The notes below the pieces were generated by a model. It was not told where the DNA came from. It made no database searches and saw only the letters and a list, made by a program, of their open reading frames with translations. The position numbers and the translations under genes were made by a program. From the NCBI RefSeq assembly GCF_014356525.2, contig NC_052511.1:48174182-48238181 (forward strand): a DNA stretch of 64,000 nucleotides, read 5' to 3'. Positions 5,701-64,000 of the stretch are shown here, piece after piece. The stretch comes from Nilaparvata lugens. Lineage: Eukaryota; Arthropoda; Insecta; Hemiptera; Delphacidae. Position 1 is the first letter of the stretch. Every line of letters begins with the position of its first letter.

Positions 5701-8700
5701 ACATACAGACCCATCCCAAAAACCATTTTTTTGGACTCAGGGGACCTTGAAACGTATAGAATTTAGAAATTGGGGTACCTTAATTTTTTTCGGAAAGCAA
5801 TACTTTCCTTACCTAGGTAATAGGGCAAGGAAAGTAAAAATAACGATCGAAGCTCTCAGTGCCTCGATATTGGAAGTAGATTGATGAAAAAGCAATTTGT
5901 AATATAATAACTATAGATAATAATTATATTGTTATGCATCTACATAAATTGGCGGAGCTTTGGACTTATCAATGTCCATTCTTCGGAAAGAATATTAAAA
6001 ATATCCTCCCCACTAACTCTCTACCAAAACGTTAATTTCGTTATTTAAACTAAGGATTTATTATTAATGGAAATATTGTAAAAGTTTTAATCAATATGAA
6101 TATTGAAGAGAAAAAAAACAGAAAATTGATAAAGTAAAATAATTATATAGGTAGATAAGATCAAATAATTGATTAATAAAATGAAGTAGGCTGAAAGTAG
6201 ATCAGGGTTATCAACTTTCAGTAATATACAGCATTATGCAGTGGATAATTGAAATAACATGAGTTTATATAATATATATATATATATATACAATTCGTTC
6301 TATAACATGGTTTAAAGGTTTGTATTTGTGGGATGGGTGGGGGATGGTTGTCATGTGATCGTTCTAGGGCCGGACAGTTTCAGTCATTTGTTCCAAAAGA
6401 TGTTTTTTTAAAGTCAGGATGAAGCTCGCTCGGCTCTCGATGGACCTGATAGAAACAGGAAGTGCATTCCATGCACGACAGGCACTGACTAAGAAGGATT
6501 TTGTGAAAATAGTAGTTCGATGATTGGGTATCCTTAAAGTACTTTCTCCGGTTCTAGTATGTGAAGCATCTATCCTCCTACCTTCAGAGACAAATTTGAA
6601 ATCATCTTTAAAATAGTTCGGATTACCGTATTTCAAGATATCTCTAACAAGCTTGACTATTCGAAAAAGCCTCTGATCGGGAAGCTTTAATGTTGAACTA
6701 GCAATGTGGGCTGGGGTGATATGATCATGGCGTTGGAGAGAGTAGACGAAACGTAGACAATAATTTTGGCAACGCTGTAGTTTATCATTCAGAGTGACTT
6801 GCATATCGTTAAGAACAGAATTACAATACATTAAATGTGGGAAGATGAGAGATTGAACCAATAATAATTTAATGTTTCTAGGGAGGATATCGTGCATTTT
6901 CTTCAATGCATGCATGGCTGAGAATACCTTTTTACAAGTTTTGTTCACTTGTTCTGACCAGTCAAGAGTATATTCATAATAATGCCTAAATTTTTAACTG
7001 AGCTACAGTAAGGAATGTCATTACCGTCTACACTAATTTTGTGAATCGATTCAAGGTCAATATTGTTTATAAGACGAGAATATCCAATTATAATGGGTTG
7101 TGTTTTGATGGGATTAAGCTTAAGGCCATTTTTCTTTGTCCATTCCACTATCGAATTGATATCCTGATTCATTATTCCAACTGTTTCATTAATTTTTGTT
7201 ATGGGACAGCTTAAATAGATTTGAAGGTCGTCTGCATAAGTATGCAGAATTTGATAATGGAAGAAAGGTCATTAGCATACAAAGTGAAGAGGAGAGGGCC
7301 TAAAATTGAACCTTGTGGTACTCCATGCATAACGTTTTTCCAAGTTGACTTTTTGTCACCGACAGATACACATTGTTTCCTACCTAATAGATAGGATTTA
7401 AACCAAACTAACGAGTTGTGACTGAAACCAAGAATAGCCAACTTATTCAGAAGGACTGTATGATCAACAGTATCGAATGCTTTAGAAAAATCAAATAGGG
7501 TGAGGATGGTGCATTTTCTTTGGTCCATAGCTAACCTTATATCATCAGTGACACGAAGCAGAGCTGTCTCAGTTGAATGGAATTTTCTAAATCCTCCTTG
7601 TCACATAAGGTGCATGTTTGTCATACAAAGTCAAAGTCCAATTCTCGAAAGTCTTGACCATGTCATCAACTGAGGGTAATGCTTCAATTTGATGCCATGG
7701 AGTCTGAGCCACATCAGTCAGGAAGGCGGCTTCATCAAAGTTTTTGAAGTCTCTATAAGTGATAATTTTCTGTTCTGGCTTAGGTATCTTATGAGAGGGA
7801 GAGTGAGTGAGTGAGAGTTTGTTGAGGGAGTTAGAGGAAATAAAAGAATAAGAGAGTGAAAAGGTGATTGAGTAAGGGAGTGAGTGAGAGAGAAAGAGTG
7901 AGTGATAGTGTAAGGGAGGGAGTGTGAGTGAGAGAGAGTGAGCATGAGAGAGTTTGTTGAGGGAGTGAGAGGAAGTAGGAGAATAAGGGAGTAAAAGGGT
8001 GATTGAGTAAGGGAGTGAGTGAGAGAGAATGAGGGAGTGCAAGTGAGAGAGAGAGAGTGAATGAGAGAGTTTGTTGAGGGATTGATTGATTGATTGAGTA
8101 CTTTATTTATGTAGATTACAATATATACTGGCTTATACACTTATATACAATAGCTTACAATACAGCAAAATTATAGTTAAATTCACATAATATAGACTAA
8201 GAAAATAATTATTGAACTGTATATGATATGAAAAAGCAATTTGTAATATAAATAACTATGGATATTGTCATGCATTATGGATATTGTTATATTGTTATGC
8301 ATCTACATAAATTGGCGGAGCTTTGGACACACCAATGTCCATTTTTCGGAAAGAATATTAAAAATATCCTTCCCACTAACTCTCTACCAAAAGTAGTGAG
8401 AGGAAGTAAGAGAATAAGGGAGTGGAAGGGGAAGTGAGTAAGGGAGAGAGTGTGTAGAAGAGAGGGATCGAGAGAGAGCGTGAGTGTGAAGGAGAGACTG
8501 CGAGTGTGTGAGGGAGATTAGATTAGATTAGATTGGATTTCTTTATCTATGTATGTTACAATATTTACTGACTTAAACACTAATTTACATTAAATGACGA
8601 TAATGCTAGTTATTCAACGACTTTCACAAAGTATAGATAATAAATAAATAATTAATCAATGAGAATAAAGATTGAATGCAATTAGAATAAAGATAATATA

Positions 8701-40065: not shown

Positions 40066-41580
40066 ATAGTAGTTATGAGTTAAATAAACGGGTATCCCTA
40101 CAGCCCTGTCAAACATTGTATTTTCTCAATTAATTTATTAATAAATTTCACGTATTTTGCATGGACTAAAACAACCATCACAGTCTACCAATAACTATTA
40201 TGAGTTATGTTAAACTAGTCATAGTTATTAGTTAAATAAACGGGTATCCCTACAGCCCTGTCAAACATTGTATTTTCTCAATTAATTTATTAATAAATTT
40301 CACGTATTTTGCATGGACTAAAACAACCATCACAGTCTACCAATAACTAGTTATGAGTTATGTTAAACTAGTCATAGTTATTAGTTAAATAAACGGGTAT
40401 CCCTACAGCCCTGTCAAACATTGTATTTTCTCAATTAATTTATTAATAAATTTTACATATTTTGCATGGACTAAAACAGCCATCACAGTTTACCAATAAA
40501 CTAGTTATGAGTTATGTTAAACTAGTCATAGTTATTAGTTAAATAAACGGGTATCCATACAGCCCTGTCAAACATTGTATTTTCTCAATTAATTTATTAA
40601 TAAATTTCACGTATTTTGCATGGACTAAAACAACCATCACAGTCTACCAATAACTAGTTATGATTTATGTTAAACTAGTCATAGTTATTAGTTAAATAAA
40701 CGGGTATCCCTACAGCCCTGCCAAACACTGTATTTTCTCATTAATTTTACATATTTTGCATGGACTAAAACAACCATCACAGTCTACCAATAACTATTAT
40801 GAGTTATGTTAAACTAGTCATAGTTATTAGTTAAATAAACGGGTATCCCTACAGCCCTGTCAACATTGTATTTTCTCAATTAATTTATTAATAAATTTCA
40901 CGTATTTTGCATGGACTAAAACAACCATCACAGTCTACCAATAACTAGTTATGAGTTATGTTAAACTAGTCATAGTTATTAGTAAATAAACGGGTATCCC
41001 TACAGCCCTGTCAAACATTGTATTTTCTCAATTAATTTATTAATAATTTTACATATTTTGCATGGACTAAAACAGCCATCACAGTTTACCAATAAACTAG
41101 TTATGAGTTATGTTAAACTAGTCATAGTTATTAGTTAAATAAACGGGTATCCATACAGCCCTGTCAAACATTGTATTTTCTCAATTAATTTATTAATAAA
41201 TTTCACGTATTTTGCATGGACTAAAACAACCATCACAGTCTACCAATAACTAGTTATGATTTATGTTAAACTAGTCATAGTTATTAGTTAAATAAACGGG
41301 TATCCCTACAGCCCTGCCAAACACTGTATTTTCTCAATTAATTTTACATATTTTGCATGGACTAAAACAGCCATCACAGTTTACCAATAAACTAGTTATG
41401 AGTTATGTTAAACTAGTCATAGTTATTAGTTAAATAAACGGGTATCCCTACAGCCCTGTCAAACATTGTATTCTCTCAATGTTTAATTTGTTTATTAATG
41501 TTTTATTTTCTCAATTAATTTATTAATAAATTTCACGTATTTTGCATGGACCAAAACCACCATCACAGTCTACCAATAAA
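40066..41580. repeat. Tandem array of about 153-bp units carrying the ALG14 stop-codon end
   Basis: About ten units, marked by AAACGGGTATCCCTACAGCC at 40086, 40238, 40391, 40545 (with one change), 40698, 40837, 40988, 41141, 41294 and 41436. Spacing is 151-154 bp, with two shorter units. Each unit contains CATCACAGTCTACCAATAA or a close variant, which on the minus strand is the end of ALG14 (IGRL-stop), plus an AATAAA. The ALG14-proximal unit has an extra AT-rich insertion. Confidence 0.95.
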
Positions 41581-42297
41581 CTTAGCCCTGGGATACTCAG
41601 CAGTCAAATCCGGCCACTGAACTAACACTTCATCTGCAATAAACAACAAAATTTTCCCAGTCAACGACAAAGTCTGTACACGACAAACGCTTTCCACAAA
41701 AATTATCCGATTGTTCGAGACGAAAAAGAGTCTCATCAGAAAGGCTATCACACAAACTGGTATACATGTACCGGGCCCGTTACAGAGTATCAGGTCAGGG
41801 TTTACCCTCAGCATGATTGGTAGAGTATAGAAAATGGATTCCAAAGTTGTGATAACCGAAGTGAGGAAGGATTGGTGTACCTCTCGGCTGCGAGGGATTT
41901 TTAGGATTTTATAGTCTTTATTAACCTCGTTTACCTCGTTTTCACACTCTTTTACCTCGTTTTTAGCCTCGTTTTTACCCTCTTTCACCTCGTTTTCACC
42001 CTCATTTTCACCCTCACACCTCAAAACTTTCCCCTCACTCATAGTATCTGTGTCGGCGATCACATAAGTTCTGGGAGAATAGTTTCTAAAGTCCAACTTT
42101 TCAACTAACAACATCATTTCAGTCGTGTGACCCCCGGATCCAATCACTATCAGAGTTTTCACTTTATCCACACTTTTATCGCGTTTCTTTTCTTTTGGCC
42201 TTGTTTTGTACATGATTTGATACATAAGGTAGGAGAAGCGACAGGCGAAAAAGTAGATAGCGTTGAGAAGTATGAATAAGAAGGCTAGTAACCACAT
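41563..42297 (-). CDS. ALG14: ALG14, UDP-N-acetylglucosamine transferase subunit
   Basis: A single open exon of 244 codons. ALG14 is the ER-membrane subunit that recruits catalytic ALG13 to make the second step of lipid-linked oligosaccharide synthesis (GlcNAc2-PP-dolichol). An N-terminal hydrophobic helix covers residues 1-25. Family motifs appear in order: VIGSGGHTTEM, YSPRTYVIADTD, IPRSREVHQS, NGPGTCIPVC, VESVCRV, LSLTGK and VQWPDLTAEYP, ending FIGRL. Between the ADTD and IPRSRE blocks is a lineage-specific Glu/Asn/Lys-rich insert (repeating ENEVKE-like units), so the protein is longer than the roughly 215-residue vertebrate form. The ATG at 42297 is chosen; extension to 42306 would need a TTG. 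AATAAA lies 39 nt past the stop (41524-41519). Both gene ends lie inside tandem arrays. Confidence 0.95.
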   Translation of the reverse strand: MWLLAFLFILLNAIYFFACRFSYLMYQIMYKTRPKEKKRDKSVDKVKTLIVIGSGGHTTEMMLLVEKLDFRNYSPRTYVIADTDTMSEGKVLRCEGENEGENEVKEGKNEAKNEVKECENEVNEVNKDYKILKIPRSREVHQSFLTSVITTLESIFYTLPIMLRVNPDLILCNGPGTCIPVCVIAFLMRLFFVSNNRIIFVESVCRVQTLSLTGKILLFIADEVLVQWPDLTAEYPRAKFIGRL

Positions 42298-43135
42298 TTT
42301 ATCCAAGATTTTTTTTAGTTTTAAGATTATTTGAGTATTTAGAGTATTTATATTATTAGAGTATGCAAACGTTGTTAATTTTTAGTCTGATGTTTCTTGA
42401 ATTCTCTTGTTTCCTATTTAAGAAGTGTGAAGAGGAAGAAAGGCTGATAACCACATTTTTCAAAGATTTTTTTCAGTTTTAAGATTATTTGTGTATTTAG
42501 AGTATTTATTATTAGAGTATGCAAACGTTGTTAATTTTTAGTCTGTTGTTTATTGAATTCTCTTGTTTTCTAGTTAAGAAGTGTAAATAGGAAAGCTAGT
42601 AACCACATTTTATCCAAGATTTTTTTCAGTTTTAAGATTATTTAGAGTGTTTATATTATTAGAGTATGCAAACGTTGTTAATTTTCAGTCTGATATTTTT
42701 TGAATTCTCTTGTTTCCTATTTAAGAAGTGTGAAAAGAGAGAAGGCTAGTAACCAGATTTATCAAAGATTTTTTTAGTTTTAAGATTATTTTAGTATATG
42801 GAGTATTTATATTATTAAAGTATGCAAACGTTGTTAATTTTTAGTCTGATATTTTTTGAATTCTCTTGTTTTCTAGTTAAGAAGTGTGAAGAGGAAGAAA
42901 GGCTAGTAACCACAATTTATCCAAGATTTTTTTCAGTTTTAAGATTATTTAGAGTGTTTATATTATTAGAGTATGCAAACGTTGTTAATTTTCGGTCTGA
43001 TATTTGTTGAATTCTCTTGTTTCCTAGTTAAGAAGTGTGAAAAGGGAGAAAGGCTAGTAACCAAATTTTTTCAAAGTTTTTTCTTCAGTTTTAAGATTAA
43101 AGTATGCTAACTACGTTGTTAATTTTCAGTCTGAT
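42285..43135. repeat. Tandem array of about 155-bp units carrying the ALG14 start-codon end
   Basis: Five clear units and a sixth degraded one, marked by GCAAACGTTGTTAATTTT at about 42365, 42531, 42668, 42824 and 42975, with a decayed version near 43105. Each has a GGCTAGTAACCACA-like segment, equal to the first codons of ALG14 in reverse. Units at 42455 and 42608 keep an ATG in the same context; more distant units have lost it. Confidence 0.92.
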
Positions 43136-49859: not shown

Positions 49860-50480
49860 ATACCCGGGCTGATTGTAGATCAACTGACATCTTGATGAAG
49901 TGAATGTCACCATTCCCATTCAGTCAATGATGGAAGTATGAAATGGAAAACCCAGGCTGATCTTGAGCAACTGAGATCTTGGTGGAGTGGATGTCAACCT
50001 TCCCATTGATCAACTGAGATCTTGGCAAAGTGGATGTCAACCTTCCCATTGATCAACTGAGATCTTGGTGGAGTGGATGTCACCCTTCCATTGATCAACT
50101 GAGATCTTGGCAAAGTGGATGTCAACCTTCCCATTGATCAACTGACATCTTGATGAAGTGGACGTCACCCTCACATTGATCAACTGACATCTTGATGAAG
50201 TGGACGTCAACCTTCACATTGATCAACTGACATCTTGATGAAGTGGACGTCACCCTTCACATTGATCAACTGACATCTTGATGAAGTGGACGTCACCCTT
50301 CACATTGATCAACTGACATCTTGATGAAGTGGACGTCACCCTTCACATTGATCAACTGACATCTTGATGAAGTAGACGTCACCCTTCACATTGATCAACT
50401 GAGATCTTCATGAAGTGGACATCTCCCTATCTATTGATCAACTGACATCTTGATGAAGTGAATTCCATCCTTCCCATCCA
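49860..50480. repeat. 43-bp minisatellite
   Basis: About 14 units of 43 bp with core TTGATCAACTGACATCTTGA and TGAAGTGGACGTCACCCTT. Central units are nearly identical, outer ones diverged (GAGATCTTGGTGGAGTGGATG). It starts about 80 bp past the SLC17 stop codon on that gene's strand. Confidence 0.95.
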
Positions 50481-62205: not shown

Positions 62206-62355
62206 GGGCCGTTTGCACAGTCAAAGATTAAACTGAATTTAATCAGCTGGTAGCTTAAACTCAAAATGAAACAAATAATAACAAACGAGACTTGATAAGG
62301 ATTTAATCCAGATTAAAATTAAATTTAGTTTAAACTGTCACTGTGCAAACGGCCC
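62206..62355. mobile_element. GGGCCGTTTGCACAG MITE abutting the gap
   Basis: 150-bp palindrome with ends GGGCCGTTTGCACAGTCAAA and GTCACTGTGCAAACGGCCC, preceded by TTAA. The right flank is lost because the N run begins at the very next base. Confidence 0.9.
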
Positions 62356-62455
62356 NNNNNNNNNNNNNNNNNNNNNNNNNNNNNNNNNNNNNNNNNNNNN
62401 NNNNNNNNNNNNNNNNNNNNNNNNNNNNNNNNNNNNNNNNNNNNNNNNNNNNNNN
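62356..62455. other. Assembly gap of 100 N
   Basis: Exactly 100 N, the usual placeholder for a gap of unknown size. Linkage of sequence on its two sides is less certain than elsewhere. Confidence 1.
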
Positions 62456-63105
62456 CACATTGTATTTATTAGCTACACTTAGCTCTTAAGTGTATTTTTA
62501 AGGCCAGTGACGCCTATTAATTTGTTTTATTAATGTCTATCTTATTAGCATGACCTATTCCACCCTCTAGGTTTCCTAATAATTGCGAAGTATTGCTACA
62601 ACGCGGACTAGCTACAGTCGGATATGGGTCGGGGTCAGTAGCCGTACTGACAGGTGGAGATACCGGACCTACACTTCTCCCTCTATCCTGATTCTTTACC
62701 CTCTGCTTCTTTTGCGAGATTTTTACTTTCAGGGGAAGAGTGTTTACCCGTGGCGTTGCTGGCCGATTCGGCCCTCGGCCTTTGGAATACAGGGTGGGTG
62801 TTAAGGGAGATTAAGATAACCCTATACAAGGAGATGGATCTGACTATCAGATCCCTACCAATAATTCTATTTATAAAGGTAGTACACAATCTGAACCAAC
62901 TGCGAATTGACGGCGAGCAGCTGTACCTGCAAGCCGGGATGTGGTTTTTCTATGGGGTTTAAGGTGAGAGCTATGGGGTAAAGGTATGGCGGAACTATGG
63001 AGTTGTTAGTGATATTAAGATATCGTCAAATAGGCACGGTATAAGGTGTAAGCTATAGAGAATAGGGTGCAGGGTATGAGGTATACGGTATAGGGTCTAG
63101 GGAAC
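62456..63105. other. Post-gap sequence with scattered perfect hairpins
   Basis: Less AT-rich than the rest of the window. Perfect stem-loops: 62475-62493 (7-bp stem), 62634-62651 (7 bp, 4-nt loop), 62761-62773 (GGCCGA/TCGGCC), 62836-62854 (GGATCTGA/TCAGATCC, 3-nt loop), 62911-62936 (CGGC and GCAG nested), 63011-63024. No gene recognised. Confidence 0.7.
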
Positions 63106-64000
63106 AGAGAATCAATAATAAGATTATATTCTCTACAGCAAATAAATATCTGCTCAATAATCCGCAATCTGAGAGTTGCGCTCTAGCTCTCAGCAAGCTG
63201 GACTGCTAGCTAAATACAGTATATCAATTTCAATTAGTGGTAATTGAAGCTTAGAGGATAAGGTTTTAGGTGGGATTTCTGAATCGCGAGCCTGCAGCTG
63301 CGAAAGGATTTTCATCAATTCTGAAACTGCTAAACAGGATTTCCGCGCTAATCTGTTGACTGCGTGCCGGTTATTAAGGGCCAATCTGTGACTGCCCTTA
63401 AGGGTATGGGAATCACTCTCAATCGTCCGAAACGCTTTTAAATTAATAGTCAGTATGTCGACTATTATGAGAGGATAGAAAAGATTTTTCACAGACACAG
63501 TCTGTAGAATAATATCGGGAAGACAACAGTCTGTCGTTGTCAGGGTAGGAAAGGATTTTTCAAGGATTTTCCACAAGGAAAATATCGAGTCAGAGACTCC
63601 TAATTCAGGAAAAGATTTCAATAGACTTTTCCAAGTAATTGCCAGTCTAAGGACTACCACAAGATCGATCTCTAATTTGCAACTGAGATCACGGGAAAAT
63701 TCGTGAATTTTCCACAGGTAAAGCCAGCAAATAATATTTGCTATTAAAGAAGACAGGTTTCTAAAAATTTTAGAAAGGATTCGCGGGTCTGAAAACCCGC
63801 GACTAGGACGATCTCGAATCTGGAAATGAGATCAGGAAGGATTTTAAACACAGGAAGATTAAGAGAAGAAAGAGAATGGATGTCGAAGGTCTCAGCTTCC
63901 TCTAGAAACTTCGACAAGGACGAACTCAAGCTGCACCTGAGTTCTCTAGGAAAAGGATGGACTTTTCTACTTGGAATTACAGCAAGTCAGAAACTGCTAG
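63106..64000. repeat. Dense array of distinct back-to-back hairpins
   Basis: Stem-loops follow one another about every 30 bp. Examples with arms: 63106-63134 AGAGAAT; 63169-63193 CTGAGAG; 63229-63248 TTCAATTA; 63374-63401 TTAAGGGC; 63444-63467 TAATAGTC; 63491-63505 ACAGAC; 63522-63541 GACAAC; 63566-63583 ATTTTCC; 63587-63599 GAGTC; 63608-63632 GGAAAAG; 63667-63690 GATCTC; 63694-63713 GGAAAATT; 63726-63742 AGCAAAT; 63758-63776 TTTCTAAA; 63781-63802 TCGCGGGT; 63810-63833 GATCTC; 63881-63916 TGTCGAAG; 63922-63944 GAACTCA; 63950-63967 GAAAAG. Each arm is perfectly complementary to its partner. Open minus-strand frames (63660-63190, 63929-63744) match nothing I recognise. The array runs off the window end. 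Confidence 0.88.

Follow-up and report, generated by a model that had tools for sequence, protein, structure and literature searches.

The hairpin array lies within a retrotransposon LTR

The window analysed here, a stretch of 64,000 nucleotides from Nilaparvata lugens (contig NC_052511.1), ends in a dense array of small hairpins (63106-64000). This array belongs to the long terminal repeat (LTR) of a minus-strand Ty3/gypsy-like retrotransposon. The 3' LTR, which lies to the left, is about 2.6 kb long (62543 to about 65158 in window coordinates; positions 187-2802 of sequence L031), and the LTR pair of this element shares 96.4% identity across 2,526 columns. The element termini read TGTCACAAAG...CATGCTAATA and the 4-bp target site duplication (TSD; AGAT) is identical on both flanks. 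For other copies, TSDs of 4 bp were identified by eye (AGCT in L010, CTGT in L024, TTAT in L025, and GTAC in L028). The preliminary description of this DNA, made from the sequence alone, had named the end of an unusual transposon as one possibility, and this was right in kind, given that the LTR pair and the TSD define an LTR. It had also placed the array directly after an assembly gap, whereas the array starts about 650 bp past the gap (62356-62455). This gap also marks the exact end of a short MITE-like element (62207-62355), whose long inverted termini read GGGCCGTTTGCACAGT...ACTGTGCAAACGGCCC. The 5' LTR on the right is interrupted by an insertion of ~1 kb (L031 8206-9253), the ends of which lie near cagtagcggctcgt and acgagccgccactg.

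The features at the right-hand end of the window are given below; all hairpins were identified by the stem count described in the following section.

62356..62455, no strand: assembly gap of 100 N, 83 bp beyond the TSD
62539..62542, no strand: TSD at the left element end, ATCT (AGAT on the sense strand of the element); the same 4 bp stand beside the other LTR (L031 9382-9385)
62543..64000, minus strand: part of the 3' LTR within the window, continuing to about 65158 (whole LTR, L031 187-2802; LTR pair, 96.4%; ends TGTCACAAAG...CATGCTAATA)
63106..64000, minus strand: hairpin array, putative R-U5 leader (stem counts; AUG depletion on the sense strand)
63106..63134, minus strand: hairpin, stem of 7 bp
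63169..63193, minus strand: hairpin, stem of 7 bp
63190..63831, minus strand: ATG-less sense-strand open frame of 213 codons, interpreted as noncoding (shuffles; flat codon-position variation; no homologue)
63229..63248, minus strand: hairpin, stem of 8 bp
63374..63401, minus strand: hairpin, stem of 8 bp, 8 of 8 pairs the same in the sister family (family alignment)
63444..63467, minus strand: hairpin, stem of 8 bp, 8 of 8 pairs the same in the sister family (family alignment)
63566..63583, minus strand: hairpin, stem of 7 bp
63608..63632, minus strand: hairpin, stem of 7 bp
63694..63713, minus strand: hairpin, stem of 9 bp
63726..63742, minus strand: hairpin, stem of 7 bp
63758..63776, minus strand: hairpin, stem of 8 bp
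63781..63833, minus strand: hairpin pair, stems of 8 and 6 bp with GTCCT between them (sense strand), which looks like a diverged two-hairpin unit (unit order by eye)
63881..63944, minus strand: hairpin pair, stems of 8 and 7 bp, still near the unit of the sister family; the first is perfect solely in the window copy (copy and unit alignments)

A search of the assembly itself (1.085 Gb, 6,870 contigs) revealed at least 39 further places that match the array with 93-96% identity, a lower bound given that scoring covered 40 of the 1,110 initial candidates. Four of these matches span query positions 1-894 at 93% identity and 35 span positions 1-836 at 94-96%, most of the latter with a second piece covering the end. 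For comparisons within the family of the window's element (hereafter, own family), 76 BLAST pieces yielded 43 near-full-length copies, of which 30 are distinct. Tandem copies with a spacing of ~5.6 kb (G000 C1771, C14, C9, C6, C2, and C4671) are as expected of rows in which LTRs and internal regions alternate.

Downstream of hairpin-bearing LTR sequence lies a gag frame (PF03732, E 3.8e-8), and another copy encodes gag, a zinc knuckle, and a protease within one open frame; the inner frames of L031 matched gag and protease only. The internal region measures 2.9 kb in all four cases with both ends (one in L031, two in L034, and one in L038), so the own family looks gag-only. Behind the LTR, some copies (L013 and L015) carry TGGCGCCCAACGTGGGGC, a PBS-like sequence and putative tRNA-Lys primer site, which is altered in the window's element; a tRNA pattern search for its partner gave no match.

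Hairpin density in the window

Counting non-overlapping stems with perfect Watson-Crick pairing and loops of 2-20 nt, we found 18 stems of ≥6 bp, 13 of ≥7 bp, and seven of ≥8 bp in 63106-64000, compared to means of 4.05, 1.34, and 0.36 (maxima of 10, 5, and 2) in 300 dinucleotide shuffles. The preliminary description, which had claimed at least 13 perfect stems of 7-9 bp where chance would give about one, and had named similar counts in shuffled sequence as grounds for rejection, is thus borne out on both points; its total of about 24 hairpins is reached only if weaker ones are included. Among 900-bp segments taken across the 64 kb (step 300), the one starting at 63001 ranks highest with 11 stems (runner-up, 8; mean, 2.6). 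RNA folding gave z-scores of -3.0 for the plus and -3.9 for the minus strand, and the array beats all 20 shuffles on either strand. In the window copy, stems of ≥7 bp are in excess at loops of 1-15 nt but not past 25 nt, and none of these stems contains a single GT or AC pair. As had been suggested, the excess continues beyond position 64000, but it fades past about 64,340. One stem (63881-63916) is perfect solely in the window copy: a pairing base is missing in all 29 other distinct copies, and a 12-column insertion at this stem is absent from the 10 displayed copies among those 29.

Several other identities were rejected. Rfam covariance models returned no match to 62456-64000 at E values up to 1, or to L034 at the gathering score, and searches for phage or plasmid DNA were equally without match. 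No tRNA genes were predicted in the window (bacterial settings). The array is also no simple or ordinary satellite, in agreement with the preliminary description, since this region shows just a weak 7-bp period (63038-63102).

The array lies in a stretch depleted of AUG

Over its final 1.46 kb, the window LTR contains two ATG on the sense strand, compared to 18.5 expected from dinucleotide shuffles (z -4.8, the lowest among the 64 trinucleotides). CAT, the antisense ATG, is mildly low (16 vs. 22.0, z -1.9), AAG is likewise depleted (14 vs. 28.7), and the sense strand is rich in CAG (30 vs. 18.4). The sibling LTR of the same element has one ATG (18.8 expected). We surveyed 33 distinct, mutually non-independent leaders from the own family and the sister family described below, using the last 1,600 nt less 12 (1,588 nt each): 19 have no ATG, 13 have one to three, and one has six, with CAT counts of 11-21. 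This range excludes a position near -1,620, where most own-family copies carry one ATG. Stretches that contained N or were too short were skipped here, as in the open-frame rows and in the screen for single-copy changes. In the sister family, L044 extends for 2,834 nt without ATG, and the next ATG opens gag. The L044 LTR has no ATG (19.4 expected) and 23 CAT (34.4 expected) in its final 2,750 nt. Corresponding values for L048 are one ATG (21.4 expected) and 21 CAT (32.7 expected).

The AUG-poor stretch begins behind an upstream block that is common to both families. From this block to the LTR end there are 1.74-1.86 kb in L013, L015, L005, L045, and L001 of the own family, and 2.77 kb (L044) and 2.57 kb (L048) in the sister family. 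Such an arrangement resembles a scanned 5' untranslated leader, from which we infer that transcription should start near the block. The borders of the hairpin excess coincide with those of the AUG-poor leader, the excess being found in the leader of all six copies compared and not in U3: U3 contains 0-1 stems of ≥7 bp in 700 nt (0.5-0.7 expected), and the leader has 9-11 in its first 1,250 nt (1.3-2.0 expected) and 3-4 in its last 600 nt (0.5-0.7 expected). The internal region, with six stems compared to 2.65 expected, stays inside the range of its 100 shuffles (maximum, 6). Older own-family copies retain the excess (L045: 12 vs. 1.8; L046: 10 vs. 1.6). The motif AAATCCT is enriched in the leader spacers on the sense strand (6 vs. 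0.28 in L031; 6 vs. 0.34 in L006).

A long open frame without ATG

The sense strand of the array has a 213-codon frame without ATG (63190-63831), a length reached by none of 2000 shuffles of 63106-64000, and the frame extends over 383-385 codons in 11 of 28 leader rows. Variants are spread almost evenly over the three codon positions (55/56/67; shared variants: 9/10/10; L002 excluded), and 2 of the 178 variants create a stop where about 8 are expected. No homologue was found among 210 candidates at E values up to 1, nor was any Pfam domain identified in this frame. A PHROGs search with an 80-aa frame in the array gave two weak matches only (E 0.072 and 0.56), and the best match of array frames in the PDB had an E value of 1.4. 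A protein gene in the array was rejected based on the lack of homologues, Pfam domains, and codon-position bias; we read the ATG-less frame as not coding, despite its length.

A sister family carries tandem two-hairpin units

A search with the gag protein recovered, among 112 scored out of 1,941 candidates, the own family and a second group with ~68-70% identity over residues 45-359. Several members of this second group have open frames of up to 1,701-1,702 codons. Two separate pieces of one sister copy contain RVT_1 and RNase H (L049) and, further downstream, the integrase domain rve (L050). Reverse transcriptase (RT) and RNase H ahead of integrase is the order of Ty3/gypsy elements; it was found in the sister-family copy only, and the window's element has just 2.9 kb inside. 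We take the sister family to be an autonomous relative of the gag-only family, which it may mobilise.

The leader of the sister family contains units of 57 or 100 nt in tandem, of which 20 were matched in L044 and 15 in L048. Each unit consists of hairpin A (CTCAGGTACAGCTTGAG), GTCCT, hairpin B (GTCGAAGTCACAGACTGCGAC), and a spacer, which is pyrimidine-rich in the 100-nt form. These units have no stems of ≥6 bp, compared to 7.1 expected, and the whole L048 leader has six of ≥7 bp (2.2 expected; maximum, 7), which is inside the shuffle range. Long perfect stems are therefore not a general need, and the sister units speak against a simple rule. At columns 995 and 1320 of the L022 leader (own family), there are two extra units of the 57-nt type and a four-change cluster that creates a perfect palindrome.

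Evolution of the hairpins

The 30 distinct own-family copies diverge by ~1%, with similar values for stems (0.0092), loops (0.0082), and other positions (0.011). Stems as variable as the rest are expected of young neutral copies, and at this divergence the own family says little about conservation of structure. Most of the 22 pairs with double states in the own family are supported by one copy, some with unrelated flanking sequence.

Comparison of 46 distinct units from both families suggests that the arms of the tandem two-hairpin unit co-vary in part. Pair B2 is CG in 37 units and TA in five, with four intermediates; pair B3 is TA in 28 and CG in 15, with three intermediates; and pair A5 is TA in 23 and AT in 11, with nine TG and three others. 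Positions A6 and B5 are mostly unpaired. Hairpin A is paired in 282 of 368 cases (mean of 2000 shuffles: 255.4; maximum: 272); hairpin B as a whole shows no excess over shuffles (181 of 230; mean: 172.1; maximum: 189).

When the two families were aligned (85% identity, 1,002 columns), the pairs of own-family stems of ≥5 bp appeared in the sister family as 88 unchanged, two compensated, four GU, 12 AC, 19 other, and 65 without counterpart. The reverse count, from sister stems to the own family, gave 74 unchanged, one compensated, two GU, two AC, seven other, and 24 without counterpart. The excess of AC mismatches over GU pairs between families is no argument for selection acting on the sense RNA. 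The preliminary idea that structure is what is conserved is only partly upheld: there are compensating changes among tandem units and at two aligned pairs between families, but broken pairs outnumber compensated ones in the family alignment.

In a comparison without L002, L027, L030, and copies with <5 private changes, substitutions present in at least three copies perturb the sense fold less strongly than randomly placed substitutions do, with 5 of 100 random sets having an equally small effect (antisense: 13 of 100). Private substitutions are nearer to random (61.5 vs. 93.2, sd 19.5; 11 copies). CAG occurs in the loops of 8 of 30 hairpins in L013 (11 vs. 3.9 expected), 23 of 36 in L044 (26 vs. 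9.9), and 6 of 30 in the window copy (7 vs. 4.1).

Interpretation of the array

Our preferred reading, with a probability of roughly 0.6, is that the array is part of the R-U5 leader of a Ty3/gypsy-like LTR, AUG-poor and carrying small stem-loops that derive in part from a two-hairpin unit. On the sense strand, the array would lie inside a 5' untranslated leader of 1.7-2.8 kb that reaches the gag start codon, a placement based on AUG scarcity and position. The leader would be held nearly AUG-free, allowing scanning ribosomes to get to gag. It would form a string of small stem-loops, part of them from a unit that multiplied as tandem copies in the sister family and diverged in the own family, and the arms of the unit may change yet still pair. 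The likeliest role of the hairpins would be in Gag binding and packaging, for which they would provide repeated RNA sites; a second role may be in first strand transfer, because R stands at both RNA ends, and the hairpins would presumably slow translation as well. The structured noncoding RNA considered in the preliminary description fits such a 5' leader, but not a hairpin precursor or free RNA gene, given the lack of Rfam matches and stems of just 7-9 bp. It is a tentative proposal, which we would not yet favour, that these elements represent a new type of leader, namely a 1.7-2.8-kb R-U5 nearly AUG-free in all frames, with a modular string of ~30 or more small RNA hairpins. Tandem growth of a two-hairpin module, with loops alike and arms drifting under a pairing constraint, would then provide an expandable array for Gag binding or strand transfer at both ends of the genomic RNA, common to autonomous and gag-only families.

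An explanation without function, in line with the template-switching process named in the preliminary description, is that reverse transcriptase left the hairpins as scars, through template switching or snap-back synthesis, on minus strong-stop DNA (R-U5), a noncoding and transiently single-stranded intermediate. Perfect, wobble-free stems (≥7 bp, window copy), the confinement of the hairpin excess to the leader, the private insertion that creates a perfect 8-bp stem in the window copy, and clustered single-copy changes that build new palindromes (e.g., in L022) all agree with such a process. We nevertheless regard it as unlikely, as compensated pairs occur across tandem units of both families, several hairpins are the same between families at 85% identity, and the lack of AUG is left unexplained. 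The array might also be the passive relic of a decayed tandem two-hairpin repeat, retained through duplication rather than structural need, with perfect stems arisen by drift. This is improbable: decay should reduce stems, yet the diverged array has 13 of ≥7 bp and the tandem units have none of ≥6 bp, even though the 57- and 100-nt units of the sister family, the unit-like order in the window, and own-family stems that vary like the rest are compatible with it.

Where CTCAG/GTACAG follows a pyrimidine-rich spacer, the sequence looks like a 3' splice site joined to a 5' one, and the units could be repeated sites or decoys masked by hairpins. The unit sequence, the sense-strand CAG count (30 vs. 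18.4), and the over-representation of CAG in loops of L013 and L044, less so in the window copy, are consistent with this module, which we judge very improbable because the motif is absent from many window hairpins and was noticed after the fact. A contaminant or assembly artefact behind the gap, raised earlier as a way in which the array might be dismissed, has a practically negligible probability. The contig does start behind 100 N, and several single-base differences of the window copy from the other displayed copies may be sequencing errors, but the array occurs in at least 39 other places of the same assembly at 93-96% identity and a matching TSD stands on both sides of the element, which refutes this reading.

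An anonymous hairpin array in raw sequence is thus resolved as part of a transposon. Two families with ~70% gag identity in one genome provide a natural experiment, a tandem hairpin module versus diverged hairpins, both nearly AUG-free. This pair makes testable whether ribosomes scan inferred leaders of about 1.75-2.8 kb, which molecules bind the repeated hairpins, and whether hairpins in R-U5 arise through reverse transcription itself.

Comparison with known systems

To our knowledge, descriptions of structured leaders in LTR elements come mainly from retroviruses and from a small number of model retrotransposons; our literature searches found no description of a leader such as this one, which is no proof of absence. 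Retroviral leader RNAs have few and fixed stem-loops (TAR, packaging) in R-U5 upstream of gag. The present elements are similar in having stem-loops in the putative R-U5 ahead of gag, but differ in that these are dozens of small, partly repeated hairpins with putative Gag binding. Dense short hairpins in noncoding DNA are reportedly also formed by repetitive elements of mitochondrial genomes, whereas the present array is a regular component of an LTR in the nuclear genome. Non-autonomous LTR elements of the TR-GAG type, a term used in plant work, have LTRs and gag without RT and integrase; the own family is alike in that its LTRs flank gag and protease, within an internal region that measures 2.9 kb in four of four cases. 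A strand-transfer role is described for the TAR hairpin (PMC13185573).

The Osvaldo lineage of Ty3/gypsy elements (Osvaldo, Ulysses, and mosquito relatives) offers a further comparison. According to the available part of its description, LTRs in Culex range from 997 to 2,055 bp in the text and up to 2,137 bp in a table, TSDs are mostly 4 bp, and the primer tRNA is tRNA-Lys (PMC3286476). The window's element is similar in its long LTR (2.6 kb, the lineage having about 1 kb or more) and 4-bp TSD, but the hairpin array and AUG-free leader go unmentioned in that part of the description (PMC3286476). The element is Ty3/gypsy-like with some Osvaldo-like traits (long LTR, 4-bp TSD), and we do not file it as Osvaldo.

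Other features of the window

The minus strand contains a 272-codon frame with LIVIGSGGHTTEMM (41563-42381), presumably ALG14-like, with tandem repeats of ~153-156 bp nearby, and a 209-codon frame (6364-6993) that resembles the terminal part of a non-LTR reverse transcriptase. Two minisatellites were also found (661-2512: 56 bp, 33 copies; 49963-50460: 43 bp, 11.6 copies).
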